DNA from: Hyphomonadaceae bacterium BL14
GTDB lineage: Bacteria > Pseudomonadota > Alphaproteobacteria > Caulobacterales > Maricaulaceae
Assembly (NCBI GenBank): GCA_027627705.1
Contig: CP091242.1
Location: 670,076 to 734,075 of the forward strand
DNA: 64,000 nt
Direction of reading: 5' to 3'
Positions within the stretch are counted from its first letter, which is position 1. Every line of letters begins with the position of its first letter. The notes beneath the pieces were generated by a model. The model made no database searches and was not told where the DNA came from. It worked only from the letters and a program-made list of their open reading frames with translations. Shown here one piece after another: positions 9,349 through 31,132 of the stretch. The position numbers and the translations under genes are program-made.

Positions 9349-10743
9349 TCACCGCGCCGTCTGATCCGCGTTGCGCCGTGTGCCGGTGATCAGGGCCGCC
9401 ACCCCGTAAGCGGCCAGCGCGGCCAGGATCGAGCCCAGAAACGCACCGGGCAGATCAAAAATCCAGCCGCCCAGCGCCATGGCGGTCAGCCCGCCCGCCA
9501 AAGCGGCCAGTGCGCTCCACTCGTCGCCGAACCGGCTGTGAAGTCCGATCAGCAGCGCGACCAGCAAGCCGGCCGAGCCGAGCGAGGAGGCGATCTCCAC
9601 CAGCCCGTAAATCGTCTCGCCGCGCGTGGCCACCACATAGGCGGCAATGCCCGCTGCGACCGTGAGAACCCGCGCCGCGATCAGGGTTTCGCGTTGGCCG
9701 GCGGCGGGGCGGGCGCGCTTGTAGAGGTTTTCAGTGGTCAGGGCGGCCACCGCCAGCAGGGCTGAATCAACCGTCGACAGCACGGCTGAAAACAGCGCGC
9801 CGGCGAAGACCACAAAAAGGGCGGTGGGCAACAGCTCGGCCGCCAGTGCGGGCAGGAAAAGATCGCCATTGGAGGCGTCAAACCCCGCGCCCGGCCCGAT
9901 CAGGCCGAACGCCAGCGGGAAGAAACCCACCACCAGATACAGACCGCCCGCTATCAGTCCGCCCCGTATGGCGATCTTCGCGCTCCTGGACCCGAGAAAA
10001 CGCGAGATCAGTTCCTGCGCCACGATGGAGCCCAGTATGGGAATGGCGAACGCGTCCAGACGCGCCAGCCAGCTCTCGCCCGGTGCGATCAGGACCAGTT
10101 GTTCGGGGCGGATCTGCGCCAGCGCCATGGCCGGTCCGCCTGCGTGATCGACCAGCGCGATCAATAGAATAACGAGCCCGGCCAGCACCACCCCGCTCTG
10201 AACAATATCGGTCACCACCGAGGCCAACAGCCCGCCAATCAGTGTGTAGGCCGTCACCAGCACGGTCACCGCCAGCAGCGTCGTGCCCACCGGCAGGCCC
10301 GCGACGGTGGATACCAGAGCGGCCAGCGCCAGGAGCTGGGCGGCCGCCCAGACGATGGAGGTGGGGATGGACACGCAGGCCGCGGCGATTTCCGCGCGTC
10401 CGCCAAACTGGTCCCGGAAGAAGTCTGCCAGCGTTATATAGCCCTTCGCCCGCATCGCCCCGGCCACAAGAAGGGCGGCCAGGATCAGGCAGATGGCGTA
10501 GCCGAAGGGCTCGGCCCGGGCCCCGGCGATGCCCTCCTGGGCAATGGTGGCGCTGGCACCCATCACCGTCTCGCCGCCAAACCAGGTGGCGAACACGGAA
10601 ATCCCCACGGCGAACATGCCCAGGCGCCGTCCGGCGACCAGATAGTCCACATCACCGGCAATCTTGCGCGACGCCCACACGGCAATGCTCAGCTGGACGA
10701 GCACATAGGCGGCCAGGGCGGCGATCATCCAGGACAAGGGCAA
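9349..10743 (-). CDS. Sodium:solute symporter (SSF) family transporter
   Basis: 464 residues with about 13 membrane helices. The N-terminal SRKIAGDVDYLVAGRRLGMF loop, ATWFGGETVMGAS and the TAYTLIGGLLASVVTDIVQ helix are typical of SSF carriers (Na+-coupled uptake of amino acids, pantothenate, solutes). The helix-8 region FSAVLSTVDSALLAVAAL has the serine residues that bind sodium in this family. The substrate is not predictable. It converges with ridA and lies downstream of, and on the same strand as, the aidB-like gene. Confidence 0.9.
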   Translation of the reverse strand: MPLSWMIAALAAYVLVQLSIAVWASRKIAGDVDYLVAGRRLGMFAVGISVFATWFGGETVMGASATIAQEGIAGARAEPFGYAICLILAALLVAGAMRAKGYITLADFFRDQFGGRAEIAAACVSIPTSIVWAAAQLLALAALVSTVAGLPVGTTLLAVTVLVTAYTLIGGLLASVVTDIVQSGVVLAGLVILLIALVDHAGGPAMALAQIRPEQLVLIAPGESWLARLDAFAIPILGSIVAQELISRFLGSRSAKIAIRGGLIAGGLYLVVGFFPLAFGLIGPGAGFDASNGDLFLPALAAELLPTALFVVFAGALFSAVLSTVDSALLAVAALTTENLYKRARPAAGQRETLIAARVLTVAAGIAAYVVATRGETIYGLVEIASSLGSAGLLVALLIGLHSRFGDEWSALAALAGGLTAMALGGWIFDLPGAFLGSILAALAAYGVAALITGTRRNADQTAR

Positions 10744-10770
10744 GCTCCGGCCAGAATCAAGGGCATCAGT

Positions 10771-12438
10771 CTAAGACCGCAGACGCGCCCGGCTGACAAG
10801 CCATTCGATATCCATGGGTGCCTCGCCAGCGCCCAGCGTGGTCGTAGTCTCGGCGATGCGTCTGCCCAGATAGGCCTCCAGCACCGGGTCCAGCCCGGCG
10901 CGCTGCAGCGCGGCGGCGGTGAGAAGCGTGGCGGACAGTTCGGCAAAGCGGCGCGCGCGCGCCTCGCTCAATCCCCCTGTCATCATCGCACGCAGGGCTT
11001 TCAGCCGCGCATCCAGCACCGGGTGCAGACCGGCCAGCGGGGCCAGCTCTGCGTCCAGCGCCTCACGCGCGGCGGCGTCGCGGCTCAGGGCGCGCAGCAC
11101 GTCCAGCGCGATCACATTGCCCGAGCCTTCCCATATGGCGTTGAGCGGGCTCTGGCGGAACATGCGGGGCAGGGGGTGCTCCTCCACATAGCCCGCGCCG
11201 CCATGGGCCTCCATGGCCTCGTAGACCAGGTAGGGCGCGCGCTTGCAGATCCAGTATTTGGCGATGGGCGTGGCGATGCGGGCAAACGCGGCCTGCGCCG
11301 GGTCCGATGCGGCCCGGTCAAAGCTCTCGGCGACCCGGAAGGCCAGGGCGAGCGCGGCTTCGGCCTCCAGAGCCAGCTCGCCGAGCACTTCGCGCATCAG
11401 CGGCTGGTCGATCAGGCGGCGCTGAAACGCGCTGCGCCGGTCGGCATGCCAGATGGCGTGGGCGCTGACCGTGCGGATCAGGCCGGCCGAGCCGGCCAGG
11501 CAATCAAGACGCGTATGGTTGACCATCTCGATGATGGTGCGCACGCCGCGTCCCGGTTCGCCCACGCGCCGTGCCCAGGCCTGTTTGTACTCAATCTCGG
11601 AGGAGGCGTTGGAGCGGTCGCCCAGCTTGTCTTTCAGGCGCTGGATTTCGATGGCGTTGCGCGTGCCGTCCGGCCGCCAGCGCGGCACCAGAAAACAGCT
11701 CAGCGCCGCCCCGTCCCCGCCCGCGTCCCCGCCTTCATAGGCGAGGGTCAGGAACCCGTCGCTCATGGGTGCCGAGCAGAACCACTTATGCCCGGTCAGC
11801 AGGGCCGCATCGCCGCCATCAATGGGCTGGGCGCGTGTCGTGTTGGCGCGCACATCCGATCCGCCCTGCTTCTCGGTCATGGCCATGCCGATCGTCAGGC
11901 CGGTCTTGTGCTCCATGGGCAGGAAGCGCGGGTCGTAGACGCCGCTGGTCGCGCCCGCGATCCAGTCACCGGCCCAGCCGGCGTGACGCAGGGCCGGCAC
12001 GCAGGCATAGGTCATGGACATGGGACAGCATACGCCGGAATCGGCGTGTCCCATCAGGATCAGCAATCCGGCATGCAGGGCGTGGCCAGCCTGATCGGTT
12101 TTCCAAGCCGCCGCCGAAACGCCGGACTTGAGCCCCAGCGCCATCAGTTCGTGATAGGCGGGGTGAAACTCCAGCTCATCCACACGCTGACCAAAGCGGT
12201 CGAAGGGTTTGAATTTGGGGGGATTTTCATTGGCGAGCCGGCCCTGCTCCTGGACGGTCTGGCTGCCCGCCGCCGCGCCCAGCGCCGACAGGCTGGCAGC
12301 GTGAATGCCTGCGCCGGCCCGGCTCAGCGCCTGGTTCAGCATGATATCGTCATCATGCCAGTTCACGCCGGTCAGCGGCGCTGACTGGTTGAAGACGGAA
12401 TGGGTGGCAAGCTCGGTGCGGGGCGCGTGATGGGTCAT
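10771..12438 (-). CDS. aidB: AidB-like acyl-CoA dehydrogenase
   Basis: 555 residues, close to the size of E. coli AidB (a FAD protein of the adaptive response to alkylation). Diagnostic blocks are HSVFNQSAPLTGVNW-like N-terminus, HADSGVCCPMSMTYA, MAMTEKQGGSDVRANTT, KWFCSAPMSDGFL, LGDRSNASSEIEY and the C-terminal EAMEAHGGAGYVEEHPLPRM and IWEGSGNVIALDVLRAL. The ATG at 12438 begins the conserved N-terminus. The gene is divergent from the GIN-domain gene across 156 bases. Membership of the AidB subfamily is clear; a DNA-repair role is family knowledge and untested here. Confidence 0.92.
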   Translation of the reverse strand: MTHHAPRTELATHSVFNQSAPLTGVNWHDDDIMLNQALSRAGAGIHAASLSALGAAAGSQTVQEQGRLANENPPKFKPFDRFGQRVDELEFHPAYHELMALGLKSGVSAAAWKTDQAGHALHAGLLILMGHADSGVCCPMSMTYACVPALRHAGWAGDWIAGATSGVYDPRFLPMEHKTGLTIGMAMTEKQGGSDVRANTTRAQPIDGGDAALLTGHKWFCSAPMSDGFLTLAYEGGDAGGDGAALSCFLVPRWRPDGTRNAIEIQRLKDKLGDRSNASSEIEYKQAWARRVGEPGRGVRTIIEMVNHTRLDCLAGSAGLIRTVSAHAIWHADRRSAFQRRLIDQPLMREVLGELALEAEAALALAFRVAESFDRAASDPAQAAFARIATPIAKYWICKRAPYLVYEAMEAHGGAGYVEEHPLPRMFRQSPLNAIWEGSGNVIALDVLRALSRDAAAREALDAELAPLAGLHPVLDARLKALRAMMTGGLSEARARRFAELSATLLTAAALQRAGLDPVLEAYLGRRIAETTTTLGAGEAPMDIEWLVSRARLRS

Positions 12439-26489: not shown

Positions 26490-27281
26490 TCACGCCGGCT
26501 TGAGGCCGGTGCAGAACACCAGCGCCTGGTCATGATAGCGCACGCCGGGCGTGCGCATGAAGCGGGCGGCGAGGGCTGCCGCGTCATTAGCGCCGGTGAG
26601 GCCGGCGATGATCTCCACGTTCTCGGCCTGAAACCGCGCCCAGTCCGATCCGGTCTCCACCACGCGGTCAAAGCGCTGCGTCTTTACCTGGGTCAGTCCG
26701 GCATCGCGCATACAGGCGTCCAGCCGCGCGCCGAACGCGCTGTCCATGAGGCCGGAGGCATCCATGGCCGTGCGCAAGCCTGCCATCGCCGCGGCGACGG
26801 CCTGCATGTCCGGCGTGCTCACATCCACCGGGACAGACGTGGAGCAATCGAGATCGGCCAGCGCCAGCACGCCTCCGGGCTTCAGCCAGTCCATCAGGCA
26901 CGCAATGGCGGCTTGCGGGTCAGGCAGATGGCCGATCACCAGACGCGCATAGACCAGATCGAACCGCCCCGGCTCGGCTGCGGGCGCGTAGAGGTCCGCC
27001 TGCATCAGGCGCACAGGGGGCTGCGGCGGGTCGGCGCGCGACAGATCAATGTCCACGCCCAGCACATCGCCGTCAGGACCGGTCTTCTGCGCAAACCAGG
27101 CCAGCATCCGCCCGGACCCCGGCCCGAACTCCGCAACCGCCATGCCCGGCGTGAAGCGCACCGCCTGGTCCAGCCACGCCTTGGTGGGGGCGGCATAAAA
27201 CCCGTCCAGCCGCTGCAAGCGCTCAGCCTCATCGGCGGCGCTGCGGGCGGATGCGAAATAGACAGAACTCAGCTCACCCAT
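26490..27281 (-). CDS. Class I SAM-dependent methyltransferase
   Basis: 263 residues. Motif I is VAEFGPGSGRMLAWF, motif II ends with LGVDIDLS, motif IV is FDLVYARLVIGHLPDP and the post-motif is LKPGGVLALADLD. This is the Rossmann methyltransferase order (UbiE/MenG-like group). The C-terminal third has no recognisable substrate domain. The ATG at 27281 was chosen from conservation of the beginning; no good ribosome site is visible, and an upstream in-frame start at 27317 is possible. Substrate unknown. Confidence 0.85.
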   Translation of the reverse strand: MGELSSVYFASARSAADEAERLQRLDGFYAAPTKAWLDQAVRFTPGMAVAEFGPGSGRMLAWFAQKTGPDGDVLGVDIDLSRADPPQPPVRLMQADLYAPAAEPGRFDLVYARLVIGHLPDPQAAIACLMDWLKPGGVLALADLDCSTSVPVDVSTPDMQAVAAAMAGLRTAMDASGLMDSAFGARLDACMRDAGLTQVKTQRFDRVVETGSDWARFQAENVEIIAGLTGANDAAALAARFMRTPGVRYHDQALVFCTGLKPA

Positions 27282-27341
27282 GTCCGGACAAATATCGGGA
27301 AACGGGGGTGGCGGCAAGCGCGATGGGGATCGCCTGAAGTC

Positions 27342-27572
27342 CTATTGAAGTCTGGTATCGAGGCCCAGACCTCCATAGTTGAACTCGCCGACCATCCGGC
27401 AGTCCAGCGAATGTCCGCCCTCGCACCCGAGCCTGCAGAACGCCGCCGCCCGGGTCAGCTCGTGCGCCACGCCGGGCTCGCCCAGATGATGGCGCATCGC
27501 CTGCCCGGCGCTGTCCAAAGGTGGCTCGCTTAACATCCCGTCATGCTGTTTTCCGATATCTGCGTGCCACAT
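27342..27572 (-). CDS. Possible small hypothetical protein or gene remnant
   Basis: Up to 76 residues with neat coding-type third-position GC in the last 45 codons (a Cys/Gly-rich AAAFCRLGCEGGH then FNYGGLGLDT) and a TAG stop 60 bases before the methyltransferase start. No ribosome site supports any start (27572, 27536 and others are possible), and the upstream part lacks coding character. It may be the 3' remnant of a longer gene at the edge of the accessory region. No family recognised. Confidence 0.35.
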   Translation of the reverse strand: MWHADIGKQHDGMLSEPPLDSAGQAMRHHLGEPGVAHELTRAAAFCRLGCEGGHSLDCRMVGEFNYGGLGLDTRLQ

Positions 27573-27657
27573 GAAGAGCGAAGGCCCAGCACTGTGGGTC
27601 AGTGAGCCGGGGTGGTGGCGCCGCCTTTCGGCGCTTGGCATGCTATGGCGCATCAAG

Positions 27658-27681
27658 CGGAGGTGGACATGACCACCTCCG
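27658..27681. terminator. Hairpin with 9-bp perfect stem, possible bidirectional terminator
   Basis: CGGAGGTGG and CCACCTCCG flank ACATGA. The T-tract is weak (TTCAGTTT on the plus side). It lies in the 27573-27805 gap after the 3' end of the RiPP-operon third gene (minus strand); nothing else is seen there. Confidence 0.5.
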
Positions 27682-28247
27682 TTCAGTTTCCGGTCAACGG
27701 TTCCCATTCGGCCCGTAGGCGGATCCGCTGACATGAGGTGTGATTGGCGCCCGTCAGTGCTTGCCCGGGCAACTTAAGTCAGAGCCGGCTTCAGACAATT
27801 CGGGTCTAACCTTGATTTTCATGGTCTTGGGCAGGCTCGTCCCGATTGCTTGCAGCCGGGCCACAGGGCTCTCCGAGCATGGCGTCGGTTTCTTCACCCG
27901 GCCACCCTATCGCGGCGCGTCGCGCTTCAAGGTTTTCGGGTTCATGAACCGGTGGCTCAAATCGCCATTCGCCGTCCGTACAGGCAAGATGGCTACCGTA
28001 GAGCTGTCGGTCGCGTTTGCCGATTTCGTACCGGTCGATCAGGCCGCCATAAGGAATTGAATGAATGGCACCCTCAGAGAACAGCACCTCGTTCCACGCC
28101 AATGCCTGTTCAATTAACTCAGGCCCCTGATTCTCCCCAGGAAATGAATGGGTCACAATGCTGTTGTAGCTCAGATACGCCTCCCGATGATTGCGAATCA
28201 AGTTCCGCACACATTCAAGCGACGCAGTTTCAAGAACGAACGAGCTA

Positions 28248-29035
28248 CTAGGTGCTGTTGACAAAGTACCGGAACCACAGGCGGATTGAAGCGAGATGGA
28301 TGAAGCCGAGATAGCTGTCGGCGGTCTTGTCGTAGCGTGTGGCGAGGCGGCGTGAGCAGCGCAGCTTGTTGAAGCACCGCTCGATGCGGTTTCTCAGCCC
28401 ATAGACGAAGTCGTCGATCTGGACGGGGTTCTTGCGGTTTCGGCGCGCCGGGATCATCGGCACTGCGCCGGCGGCTTCCAGCGATGTTCGGATATTGTCG
28501 CTGTCATAGCCTTTGTCGGCCAGCAGGACGCGCGGGACTGAGCCATGCGCGGCCATTACCGCCTCATAACCTTTGTAGTCGGAGACTTCACCGCCGGTGA
28601 TCTCAGCGGCTATGGGCAGCCCTTCAGCGTTGGTGCGAAGGTGTATTTTGGTCGTGAAGCCACCTTTTGAGCGCCCAAAACCCTGTTTTTGAGTCCCCCT
28701 TTAGCGCCCGCAGCCTGATGGTGCGCGCGAACGATAGTGGAATCGACCATTTGAAGACTGTCGGGTACGGCCCCGCTCTCGCCCAGCGCTTCCAACATCA
28801 CCTCCCACACGCCTGACAGCGTCCAGCGGCGGAACTGGCGGTAGACCCGCGTCCACGGACCGAAATAGTCGTGAAGATCACGCCAGGGCGCGCCGGTGCG
28901 CGCGATCCAGAACACGCCGTCCAGCACGCGGCGATGATCAGAAGGCGGGCGGCCCCGCTTGCCTCCGGTCGCCACCACGAAAGGCGCAAAGAACGCCCAC
29001 TCCTCGTCCGTCATCAAACCGCGAACCAAGACCAC
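28248..29035 (-). CDS. IS5-family DDE transposase in two overlapping frames (putative -1 frameshift)
   Basis: The first frame (29035-28610) holds the N-terminal MTDEEWAFFAPFV domain, GVFWIARTGAPWRDL and the first catalytic Asp in MVDSTIVRAHH. The second frame, ending at 28248, holds LLADKGYDSDNIR (second Asp) and RNRIERCFNKLR (catalytic Glu). At the A5 run on the minus strand (28686-28690; codons CTC AAA AAC) a -1 slip gives the usual IS427-type continuation KKQGFGRSKGGFTTK, then runs without stops to the end. This fits the programmed frameshift known in this IS group, so the transposase may be functional. Confidence 0.85.
28251..28267. repeat. Left terminal inverted repeat of the IS5-family element
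   Basis: GGTGCTGTTGACAAAGT; 14 of 17 bases match the other end. The last codons of the transposase run through this repeat and its stop TAG is completed by the target TA. Confidence 0.85.
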
Positions 29036-29082
29036 CTCCCAAAAGCCAGTCTTGAATCACGCTTCGGGCGGGTTGGGAATCC

Positions 29083-29099
29083 ACTTCGTCAACAGGTCC
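29083..29099. repeat. Right terminal inverted repeat of the IS5-family element
   Basis: Plus strand ACTTCGTCAACAGGTCC, the reverse complement of GGACCTGTTGACGAAGT. It abuts target TA at 29100-29101. Confidence 0.85.
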
Positions 29100-29300
29100 T
29101 AAGCACGCGAATGTCTCCAAGAGATCTTCGTGCAATCAACTCGTTCTGTTGATCGCCCTCCCGATAGTGGGCTCGCCAGACTTGAATCAGCGCTGCATCC
29201 GCGCGGTCAAGTGCTGTGAGAGCCCCCGGCCAAGCGTCGGATCCGCAACGCAGCGCGGACACAACAGTCAATGCGATTGTTATCAGCCCGATAAACGCAG

Positions 29301-30287
29301 TCACGCCTTTGTCTCCCAAGCGCCATGCACCATCATACCATCGATCGCCTCGGCGACGCGGCCAACACTACCCTCCTGATCTCCAAGCCACCCCCATTGG
29401 CCATCAGGATTGGCTTCCAGAAAAAATAGATCATTTCCATCCGAGACAAAGTCAAAACATATTAAATTCAAACCGGTCGCTCTTACGTACGCTTCAATCA
29501 GGGCAATCAGATTTCCGTTAGGCTCGAACGGGTCCGAAAAGTCATCCAAGCGGTTGTGCACCTCATATACATAACGCCAATCGACCAAGTCTTTTCCAAA
29601 CATCTCCATAATTTTGCTTTTAGAAAATATCCTCGCAAAAATACGGCCAAAAATGTAATTTAGGCGAACTTCGTACTTTTTATCAACAAATGACTGAATG
29701 TATGTTACTGAACGAACTAGCTCCGAATCTTCTATTTCATTCAAATGTGACTTGGTAAGTTCAGACGTGCTTAAAAATTCATCTTCCCCGGCAGAGTTTT
29801 TTATGACAGCTATACGCAAGGGCTTTACCACGTGCCTATGCAATTCCAAACACTGTAAAATAGAGCTCCTCTTGTTTGTGCATATTGATTCAAGAGATTT
29901 GAACCCTATTGATCGGGCGATATTCGTTTGTATGAGCTTCTCATTATATCTGACGGCGTTGTCGTATTTATGAACTGAAACGTGCTCATTAAACAACCAT
30001 ATAGACTTTAAAAGACAGTTCCATTCAAGATTTTGATAAGACTCGTGGTCGCCGCTTCTGCGGAATTCGTTATCGATGTAAGGCTTCCATCTCCACCATA
30101 CGCAGCCTATACTATATTGAACGCCCTCCAACATAATTCCGTCAGGACGGTTTGGATCGAAGCACATTTCGAACGGACGCGAAGGATCAAATAAGATGCA
30201 CTTGTGCCCAAAATCGCGCTCAACGACTTTCAAAACTTCATTTAAATGCCAATCGAGCCTGTAACCGATAAATAGAGCTATTTTCAT
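29301..30287 (-). CDS. ATP-grasp peptide maturase (MvdC/MvdD-like RiPP enzyme)
   Basis: 328 residues from the ATG at 30287. The N-terminal pre-ATP-grasp part has MKIALFIGYRLDWHLNEVL and CVWWRWKP, the counterpart of the VWWRRP motif of MvdC/MvdD-type enzymes. Then comes a Lys-bearing RYNEKLIQTNIARSIGF helix, the central strand HVVKPLRIAVIKN, and the ATP/Mg-binding LNLICFDFVSDGNDLFFLEA with NPDGQWGWLGD, the hallmark ending of peptide-modifying ATP-grasp ligases. Such enzymes form ester or amide side-chain crosslinks in graspetides. Strikingly AT-rich compared with the genome. It lies 42 bases after a 59-codon precursor candidate and overlaps the third gene (GTGA). No Shine-Dalgarno is visible; an upstream in-frame GTG at 30323 exists but lies in a hairpin. 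Confidence 0.88.
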   Translation of the reverse strand: MKIALFIGYRLDWHLNEVLKVVERDFGHKCILFDPSRPFEMCFDPNRPDGIMLEGVQYSIGCVWWRWKPYIDNEFRRSGDHESYQNLEWNCLLKSIWLFNEHVSVHKYDNAVRYNEKLIQTNIARSIGFKSLESICTNKRSSILQCLELHRHVVKPLRIAVIKNSAGEDEFLSTSELTKSHLNEIEDSELVRSVTYIQSFVDKKYEVRLNYIFGRIFARIFSKSKIMEMFGKDLVDWRYVYEVHNRLDDFSDPFEPNGNLIALIEAYVRATGLNLICFDFVSDGNDLFFLEANPDGQWGWLGDQEGSVGRVAEAIDGMMVHGAWETKA

Positions 30288-30296
30288 GTTAGGTGC

Positions 30297-30323
30297 GTGG
30301 CGGCAGGCCGAACCTGCCGCCAC
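30297..30323 (-). promoter_or_regulatory. 11-bp perfect hairpin between precursor and maturase genes (attenuator candidate)
   Basis: GTGGCGGCAGG pairs with CCTGCCGCCAC over a 5-base loop. There is no T-run, so it is more likely a partial attenuator or mRNA-stabilising/processing structure than a full terminator. It ends about 9 bases before the maturase ATG and would lower enzyme output relative to precursor. Confidence 0.7.
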
Positions 30324-30329
30324 TCTCGC

Positions 30330-30509
30330 TTAGTCAATGCACTGCCAGTCACATTTATCGGGTCCGCCGCCTGTGCCGGGGGGGGTATCCCTGCAGCCAG
30401 CAGTGCAGTCAGGGTTCGACGATTCAGAATTTGCACCGGCGACCCTATCAATCTCCTCTTTGGTAAGAGTGCGATTCCGGTTTTGGGCTACTCGAGTCAA
30501 AGTTTGCAT
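30330..30509 (-). CDS. Putative RiPP precursor peptide, 59 aa, Cys-rich core
   Basis: The ATG at 30509 is preceded by TGAGGT with a 6-base gap, and the TAA is at 30330. The N-terminal half is a charged leader ending in LTKEEIDRVAGA (residues 15-26), which resembles the LSxEELxxVAGG leaders of double-glycine-processed peptides with Ala in the last place. The core (residues 27-59) has four Cys as two CxxxC pairs (C35/C39 and C53/C57), separated by a PPGTGGGP turn. It also has five Asp plus Thr/Ser/Lys residues, the acid and hydroxyl/amine partners that ATP-grasp enzymes join. The next gene is an MvdC/MvdD-like maturase. It lacks the PFFARFL leader motif of microviridins, so it may be a new class. 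Function is inferred from context; no homologue was searched. Confidence 0.78.
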   Translation of the reverse strand: MQTLTRVAQNRNRTLTKEEIDRVAGANSESSNPDCTAGCRDTPPGTGGGPDKCDWQCID

Positions 30510-30540
30510 GATGCGACCTCAGGACGTTTGCGATGTAAAT

Positions 30541-30569
30541 AAAATACCCCAAAGGGGTGTGCGGTGCAA
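30541..30569 (-). promoter_or_regulatory. Probable sigma-70-type promoter of the RiPP operon with embedded palindrome
   Basis: On the minus strand, TTGCAC (-35, 30564-30569), a 17-base spacer and TATTTT (-10, 30541-30546) lie about 31 bases upstream of the precursor ATG. The spacer holds ACCCCAAAGGGGT (30546-30558), a perfect palindrome with 5-base arms overlapping the -10 box, where a repressor could bind. Confidence 0.6.
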
Positions 30570-31021
30570 CCAGGAAATAGGCCAATGTGATAAATATTTT
30601 TGGTTCCACTGCGCCTGTCATTGCGTGCGCCGGTAACCAGTTCTCAATCGGTATTCGAGGGGGGGTGGATATAGCTGGTGTGCGCTGACTTGGCCTCTTG
30701 CGTTGCCTGAAAGGGCGGGCATTTCATGCGGAGCGAGCAGTGGGTTGAGTCGCCCAATGTAGCCCGCAAAAAACCGCTGCCAGGCAGCACCTTCAGGAAG
30801 CAAGAACACACGCAGATCGAACCTATCCCGGTCGGCGACGCAGCGAGGATGCTAGCGTTCTGATTTTGCCAAGAGAATCAGGAGAGGCTCATGCGCCAGG
30901 GTGCGCTAGCGGCATCGTGCGCTTGCAGCGATAGCGAGGATCGACCGATAAGACGAGAGATTGTCACCCATGTCTTAGGTGCAATCCGTTACCTATGTCT
31001 CCGGGCCGTACAAGAGAAAAA
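30570..31021. other. Non-coding flank with a probable IS-end remnant
   Basis: No convincing gene is present; the 63-codon minus-strand ORF at 30618-30809 has no ribosome site or coding pattern. Near 30962-31000 there is a degenerate direct repeat (TGTCACCCATGTCT then GTTACCTATGTCT) followed by CCGGGCCGTAC. This type of sequence occurs at the ends of some transposase-bearing elements, so I read it as a leftover IS end at the tRNA-proximal border of the accessory region. No partner end is seen in the window. Confidence 0.35.
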
Positions 31022-31097
31022 TGGTGCCGGCTGAGGGAATCGAACCCCCGACCTTCGGTTTACAAAACCGCTGCTCTACCAGCTGAGCTAAGCCGGC
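31022..31097 (-). tRNA. tRNA-Thr (TGT anticodon)
   Basis: 76 nt with encoded CCA. Acceptor GCCGGCT pairs with AGCCGGC. The D-arm is GCTCAGCTGGTAGAGC, the anticodon arm GCGGTTTTGTAAACCG and the T-arm GGGGGTTCGATTCCC. It marks the right border of the AT-rich RiPP region. Confidence 0.95.
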
Positions 31098-31103
31098 ACC
31101 GGG

Positions 31104-31132
31104 CCGCCCTCCAACGTCGGGGAGGAGGGCGG
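31104..31132 (-). terminator. GC hairpin between ndk and tRNA-Thr, possible terminator
   Basis: CCGCCCTCC pairs with GGAGGGCGG around an 11-base loop. There is no T-tract, so termination may be weak or the structure may protect the ndk transcript end. Confidence 0.45.

Follow-up and report, generated by a model that had tools for sequence, protein, structure and literature searches.

In the alphaproteobacterium Hyphomonadaceae bacterium BL14 (GenBank assembly GCA_027627705.1), a small gene cluster directly downstream of a tRNA-Thr gene is likely to be a graspetide-type locus for a ribosomally synthesized and post-translationally modified peptide (RiPP), here a cross-linked, Cys-containing one. 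The cluster lies in a 64,000-nucleotide stretch of contig CP091242.1 (positions 670,076 to 734,075; hereafter the window, whose own numbering is used below) and comprises, in order and all on the minus strand, a precursor open reading frame (ORF), a hairpin, an ATP-grasp ligase gene and a coupled third gene. An earlier note on this DNA had suggested a possibly new class of ATP-grasp RiPP locus with a single maturase. Its pairing of a short precursor with a ligase holds by family, PDB-sequence and comparative evidence, whereas 'single maturase' and 'new class' have to be given up because the third gene belongs to DUF6624, a reported companion of graspetides; what the cluster presents is an unusual synthetase beside a broken DUF6624 gene. 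Our confidence that a finished product is still made in this strain is clearly lower than that in the type of locus. The features are as follows.

30330..30509, minus strand: precursor peptide gene, 59 aa (ORF and translation; eight further loci of the order have this type of leader ahead of the synthetase)
30297..30323, minus strand: hairpin in the gap from precursor to synthetase, with a perfect 11-bp stem and a 5-nt loop but without a T-run (fold and comparison with random stretches)
29301..30287, minus strand: ATP-grasp ligase (predicted graspetide synthetase), 328 aa, frame intact (NCBIfam and PDB-sequence matches, conserved residues)
29100..29304, minus strand: third gene, N-terminal piece (GTG start overlapping the synthetase stop; hydrophobic N terminus by eye)
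28251..29099, minus strand: IS5-family insertion sequence (IS), 849 bp, transposase in two ORFs, splits the third gene (NF033580; TA on either side)
27806..28250, minus strand: third gene, C-terminal piece with DUF6624 domain (PF20329, profile from the order, frame count)
31022..31097, minus strand: tRNA-Thr (TGT), upstream border of the probably acquired islet
30541..30569, minus strand: promoter-like TTGCAC-17-TATTTT (named by the earlier note; not above chance)

Ligase, precursor and related loci

The ligase matches four NCBIfam models of graspetide-type maturases, namely MvdC (E = 5e-21), TIGR04187 (6.6e-21), MvdD (3.8e-13) and grasp-with-spasm (8.8e-12), all under their curated cut-offs. 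A sequence profile built from three members of its clade retrieves four PDB sequences, AMdnB, CdnC and two entries titled 'ATP grasp ligase' (5ig8 and 5ig9), which we take to be MdnB and MdnC. All of these are ATP-grasp peptide maturases, in keeping with the MvdC/MvdD-type gene that the earlier note had read; the clustering with non-peptide ligases that it had named as telling against its proposal was not seen in these matches. Across 18 proteins, K117, A124, K155, Q198, R208 and D236 are invariant, and R238, D279, E291, N293 and G296 nearly so; presumably these are residues of the ATP site, the DxR motif and the metal site. The DFR motif of graspetide synthetases is named as critical in the available part of PMC13097080. 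A non-peptide or RimK-like ATP-grasp enzyme is highly improbable: the relative P0005 does have a weak RimK-family match (E = 0.0066), but the stronger matches of P0005, P0006 and the window protein (P0001) are to graspetide-type maturase models and the PDB matches are peptide ligases, and on these NCBIfam and PDB-sequence matches we rejected it.

Upstream of the ligase, a GAGG precedes the ATG of the 59-codon ORF, in which residues 1–26, ending in EEIDRVAGA, are the predicted leader and residues 27–59 the predicted core. The core carries two CxxxC pairs (CTAGC and CDWQC), as the earlier note had seen. Its 33 residues past the GA include five Asp, one Glu, three Thr, three Ser and one Lys, so that the described make-up is right for the Cys pairs, Asp, Thr and Ser and wrong for Lys; acceptor (Asp/Glu) and donor (Ser/Thr/Lys) residues are both present, a weak criterion that many peptides would pass. 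The leader lacks the PFFARFL-type or Phhx(1,2)h motif of the microviridin group, as had been noted for PFFARFL; it contains no Pro at all and thus cannot hold the Phhx(1,2)h motif as described in the available text of PMC8939145. Beyond the precursor gene, the strong hairpin seen earlier is confirmed at 30297–30323: the stretch 30280–30340 has a folding energy of −26 kcal/mol (z = −4.0), which none of 200 shuffles reached, and an 11-bp perfect stem was equalled in 0.1% of 1,000 random stretches of the window.

The same arrangement recurs within the order. From 18 synthetase matches we obtained 16 loci, leaving out a short fragment (genome G010, contig 30) and a degraded copy in the BL14 genome itself. 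A short ORF with a leader of the type ExxLxxVxG(G/A), on the same strand and at most 300 bp upstream, precedes the synthetase in nine of the 16, the window included, where 0.34 loci would be expected by chance at the rate found in other ORFs (0.9% of 1,987). Hairpins and Cys residues were counted in these nine loci. Cys occurs in eight of the nine predicted cores, a weak sign as 62% of background ORF ends also have Cys; in frequency, however, it makes up 25 of 309 core residues (8.1%), whereas background ORF ends have 3.1% and the synthetases 1.4%. C-x(2-4)-C is present in seven of the nine cores against 8.4% of the background. A perfect stem of at least 10 bp lies between precursor and ligase in five of the nine (the window, L015, L069, L070 and L071; for L069 the gap was measured to a start later than the first start codon of the ORF). 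By this measure L011a, L013 and L064 are no better than random stretches and L012 is marginal, and L011a, L012 and L064 have strong folds with imperfect stems. At L016 7655–8262 and L071 7460–7934 we also observed two related short ORFs ahead of the synthetase, possibly multiple precursors.

The part of PMC8939145 available already describes a GG-type leader for about half of the precursors and conserved Cys for many of the new ones, so neither trait by itself is new. A literature search combining graspetide with the genus names gave no graspetide paper among the first 10 of 924 matches, too little to tell whether these clusters have been published.

A small clade of synthetases

Word-based searches of 5.8 billion proteins, which depend on shared words and would miss remote relatives, returned only the window protein itself (P0001), P0005 (51% identity), P0006 (54%) and P0007, a protein of 218 aa named from an Oceanicaulis metagenome-assembled genome and 46% identical over 64% of the query. 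Scans of genome contigs found no relative. Synthetase matches were present in 13 of 398 genomes of the order, in 5 of 385 of a class sample and in 6 of 398 of a phylum sample, the BL14 genome being included in each count; beyond that genome, no match in the class and phylum samples exceeded 70 bits. The best other match in these genomes scored 76 bits, against 637 for the window synthetase itself.

In a tree of 26 proteins (L119 yielded no ORF for it), the four members form a clade with 100/100 support whose stem measures 2.51 changes per site. The clade falls inside a 99/92 group with synthetases of genomes G017 (two), G208, G010 and G389, although we are unsure of the position of so long a branch. 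To judge from sequence comparison, this very rare and deeply branching synthetase clade is the unusual part of the locus. Because the clade is tiny and sits on so long a stem, it is plausible that the locus falls outside the described graspetide groups, as the earlier note had supposed.

A further version of this idea, which we consider unlikely, is that the locus represents an undescribed group with paired-Cys cores built on an imperfect repeat, PD(K)CxxxCxD. Such a peptide would have disulfides or a metal site in addition to its ATP-grasp links, which might include Cys thioesters. DUF6624 would then be exported and act on the peptide once it is finished, and would not be a cytoplasmic tailoring enzyme.

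A second graspetide synthetase in the BL14 genome lies 8 kb to the left of the window (L010, about 9990–10836; G000:C1:661990-662835). It is degraded, its frame being broken by stops, with a longest listed piece of 136 aa.

The third gene and its insertion sequence

The third gene had been taken for one ORF ending at 27806 and without a recognizable family; neither holds. It consists of two pieces, 29100–29304 and 27806–28250, parted by an IS5-family element, and the pieces agree in frame once the element and one TA are removed (648 bp in total). The junctions put the element at 28251–29099, with TA on either side and ends that agree in 14 of 20 bases; its transposase ORFs (IS5 family, NF033580) lie at 28610–29035 and 28248–28556. 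The BL14 genome carries at least 14 IS5 copies at about 100% identity, a lower bound as 40 of 110 candidates were scored. Such near-identical copies, with TA on the left side in 13 of the 14, indicate that this element proliferated recently.

Against Pfam, the C-terminal piece matches DUF6624 (PF20329) with E = 1.1e-4 and 22.2 bits, under the cut-off of 27. It is recovered far more strongly, with E = 9e-17 among 1,779 ORFs, by a profile from the order: of 30 DUF6624 loci fetched, 17 gave an ORF passing a YG(S/T)(Q/H) filter, and these 17 proteins make up the profile. The alignment includes DR and QYGS..C.DG stretches. The N-terminal piece alone has no convincing family match and is not reached by the DUF6624 profile. 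By these matches and the frame count, the third gene belongs to DUF6624 and has been interrupted by an IS5 copy. Its description as a coupled, membrane-anchored gene survives in part: the GTG start overlaps the ligase stop and the start is hydrophobic by eye, while the ORF is split.

DUF6624 occurs in 133 of the 398 genomes of the order, mostly apart from the synthetases found. A lipobox-like start, by a simple pattern, in 10 of the 17 profile members suggests an exported rather than a cytoplasmic role. Of the 16 loci, four have a DUF6624-like ORF adjoining the synthetase, namely the window, the two synthetase loci of G017 and that of G343; for the G343 ORF the Pfam score is 26.1 bits, just below the cut-off. 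Within some 10 kb (L011 4114–13622), G017 carries two synthetases together with a C39-peptidase gene and a pair of DUF6624-like genes.

In the available part of PMC13097080 (Carter et al. 2026), DUF6624 is frequent in graspetide groups 18, 20, 23 and 42; a full-text literature search for DUF6624 found no other paper. Makarova's 'cluster 23', described in the accessible text of PMC8939145 as often secreted or a lipoprotein with conserved His and Arg, may be the same family, a candidate identity.

Processing, origin of the islet and known systems

We propose that the 59-aa precursor would be made with a GG-type leader, and that the ligase would phosphorylate Asp/Glu side chains of the core and join them to Ser/Thr/Lys as esters or amides; the hairpin past the precursor gene would probably give precursor in excess over enzyme. 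The third gene would have encoded a membrane-anchored or exported DUF6624 protein, a step that the strain probably lacks with the gene cut by IS5. The leader would be cut after VAGA, as is thought for the C39-peptidase transporters of sister clusters, and since the cluster holds no C39 gene, such removal would be in trans here, which is possible.

C39-peptidase ORFs of 705–842 aa lie within about 4 kb of the synthetase in six of the 12 other genomes (G017, G076, G208, G389, G248 and G343). In the window cluster no C39/NHLM-type transporter gene was found, and the one C39 match of the BL14 genome is 1.37 Mb away. NHLM-type transporters are listed as frequent in graspetide groups 2, 8, 14, 16, 18, 20, 21 and 23 in the available part of PMC13097080. 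Beside the genome's one C39 ABC transporter found (L115 1768–8734; G000:C1, about 2.062–2.069 Mb), whose frame has an in-frame stop, we observed an ORF with a similar leader, ELSMEEVDAVAGG, and, by eye, a Gly/Ala-rich, bacteriocin-like tail, as well as an HlyD-like gene, also by eye.

Several points weigh against a graspetide-type locus. The best NCBIfam score of the ligase is 75 bits against curated cut-offs of 230–475, and Pfam gives no ATP-grasp match for it. No product or cross-link is known for the locus. A word search found no homologue of the precursor, which leaves its core without support from conservation. The leader pattern was first written after two leaders had been seen (6 of the 16 loci, with 0.42 expected at a background of 1.1%) and was widened after all upstream ORFs had been read, and even so seven of the 16 loci lack it; homologues without a neighbouring short peptide were what the earlier note had said would count against it, and this is so in part, with nine loci having a leader-motif ORF and two of the seven, L016 (a tandem pair) and L063, having other candidate short ORFs by eye. 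One of the DUF6624-like ORFs (L011 5111–5959 in G017) is recognized by the order profile alone, with nothing by Pfam. C39 genes occur only elsewhere in the genomes G005, G010 and G168, and G237, G310 and G319 have none. Export in trans may have been lost too in BL14, since a stop in the C39 ORF parts its C39-membrane portion from the ATPase portion.

Some of these points would fit a ligase that is graspetide-like and has its true substrate elsewhere, the 59-aa ORF being a chance ORF. The lack of a homologue, the variation of cores between loci and the seven loci without the motif speak for this, but related loci have this kind of leader in the same position far above the background of other ORFs, and the perfect stem follows in five of nine; we consider it distinctly improbable. 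A better candidate, possible though short of probable, is a decaying remnant in which ligase and precursor are still open and no finished peptide is made, with DUF6624 cut and no working leader peptidase or exporter. The IS5 cut, the absence of a transporter from the islet, the distant C39 match with a stop in its ABC frame and the degraded second synthetase all fit. On the other side, the precursor and ligase frames are intact with their conserved residues kept, the near-identical IS copies mean that the cut may be recent, and cyclization may precede any action of DUF6624 and the transporter. As a present state, decay is compatible with the graspetide-type origin that we favour.

The ligase gene is AT-rich (42.6% GC against 65.3% for the window), in line with the AT-rich DNA that the earlier note had remarked, and the neighbouring tRNA-Thr is in place. 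In the relative G012 the flanks are shared, but 290 bp stand where the window has the 3.7-kb islet; G001 and G006 match only on the tRNA-ndk side, within the stretch fetched, and G009 there too, with a single 45-bp match in addition. The corresponding tRNA-Thr of G001 is followed by a phage integrase and a capsid gene (L109 1067–4717). Together, the flanks in G012 and the integrase and capsid gene in G001 indicate that the islet was probably acquired horizontally at a used integration site. Within the islet no integrase was seen, and the repeats listed for 27250–31110 included no convincing attachment repeat of the tRNA.

The promoter proposed ahead of the precursor gene does not stand. TTGCAC-17-TATTTT exists, with TTGCAC sharing three of six bases with TTGACA, but a promoter scan found two sites against a mean of 2.5 in shuffled sequence and did not list this one, and we rejected it as chance.

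With this locus the graspetide synthetases gain a deep branch of very few members. It also draws attention to a set of clusters in alphaproteobacteria, with Cys pairs in the core, leaders of GG type and genes of C39 type, that lend themselves to direct tests. The natural DUF6624 split offers a ready comparison for the role of an uncharacterized, often lipoprotein-like family in graspetide clusters.

Set against known systems, the locus shares an ATP-grasp synthetase, a short precursor and a DUF6624 protein with graspetide groups 18, 20, 23 and 42 of the available text of PMC13097080, a likeness in gene content; here, unlike there, DUF6624 is split by an IS and scores under the Pfam cut-off. 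Groups 18, 20 and 23, like six of the 12 related genomes, have a C39/NHLM-type gene where the window cluster has none, although for these groups the same source gives high frequency, not strict presence. With the microviridin-type synthetases (5ig8, 5ig9, 7m4s and 7mgv) it has in common an ATP-grasp ligase, by sequence profile, a DxR motif and the presumed residues of the ATP and metal sites, but differs in a leader without PFFARFL or any Pro and in the two Cys pairs of its predicted core. The synthetase loci of the order (G017, G010, G208, G389 and others) are alike in a GG-type leader ORF upstream, a Cys pair in most cores and a hairpin in about half, whereas the window synthetase is 18–24% identical to theirs, lacks the KIxSQ stretch common among them and belongs to a clade on a stem of about 2.5 changes per site.

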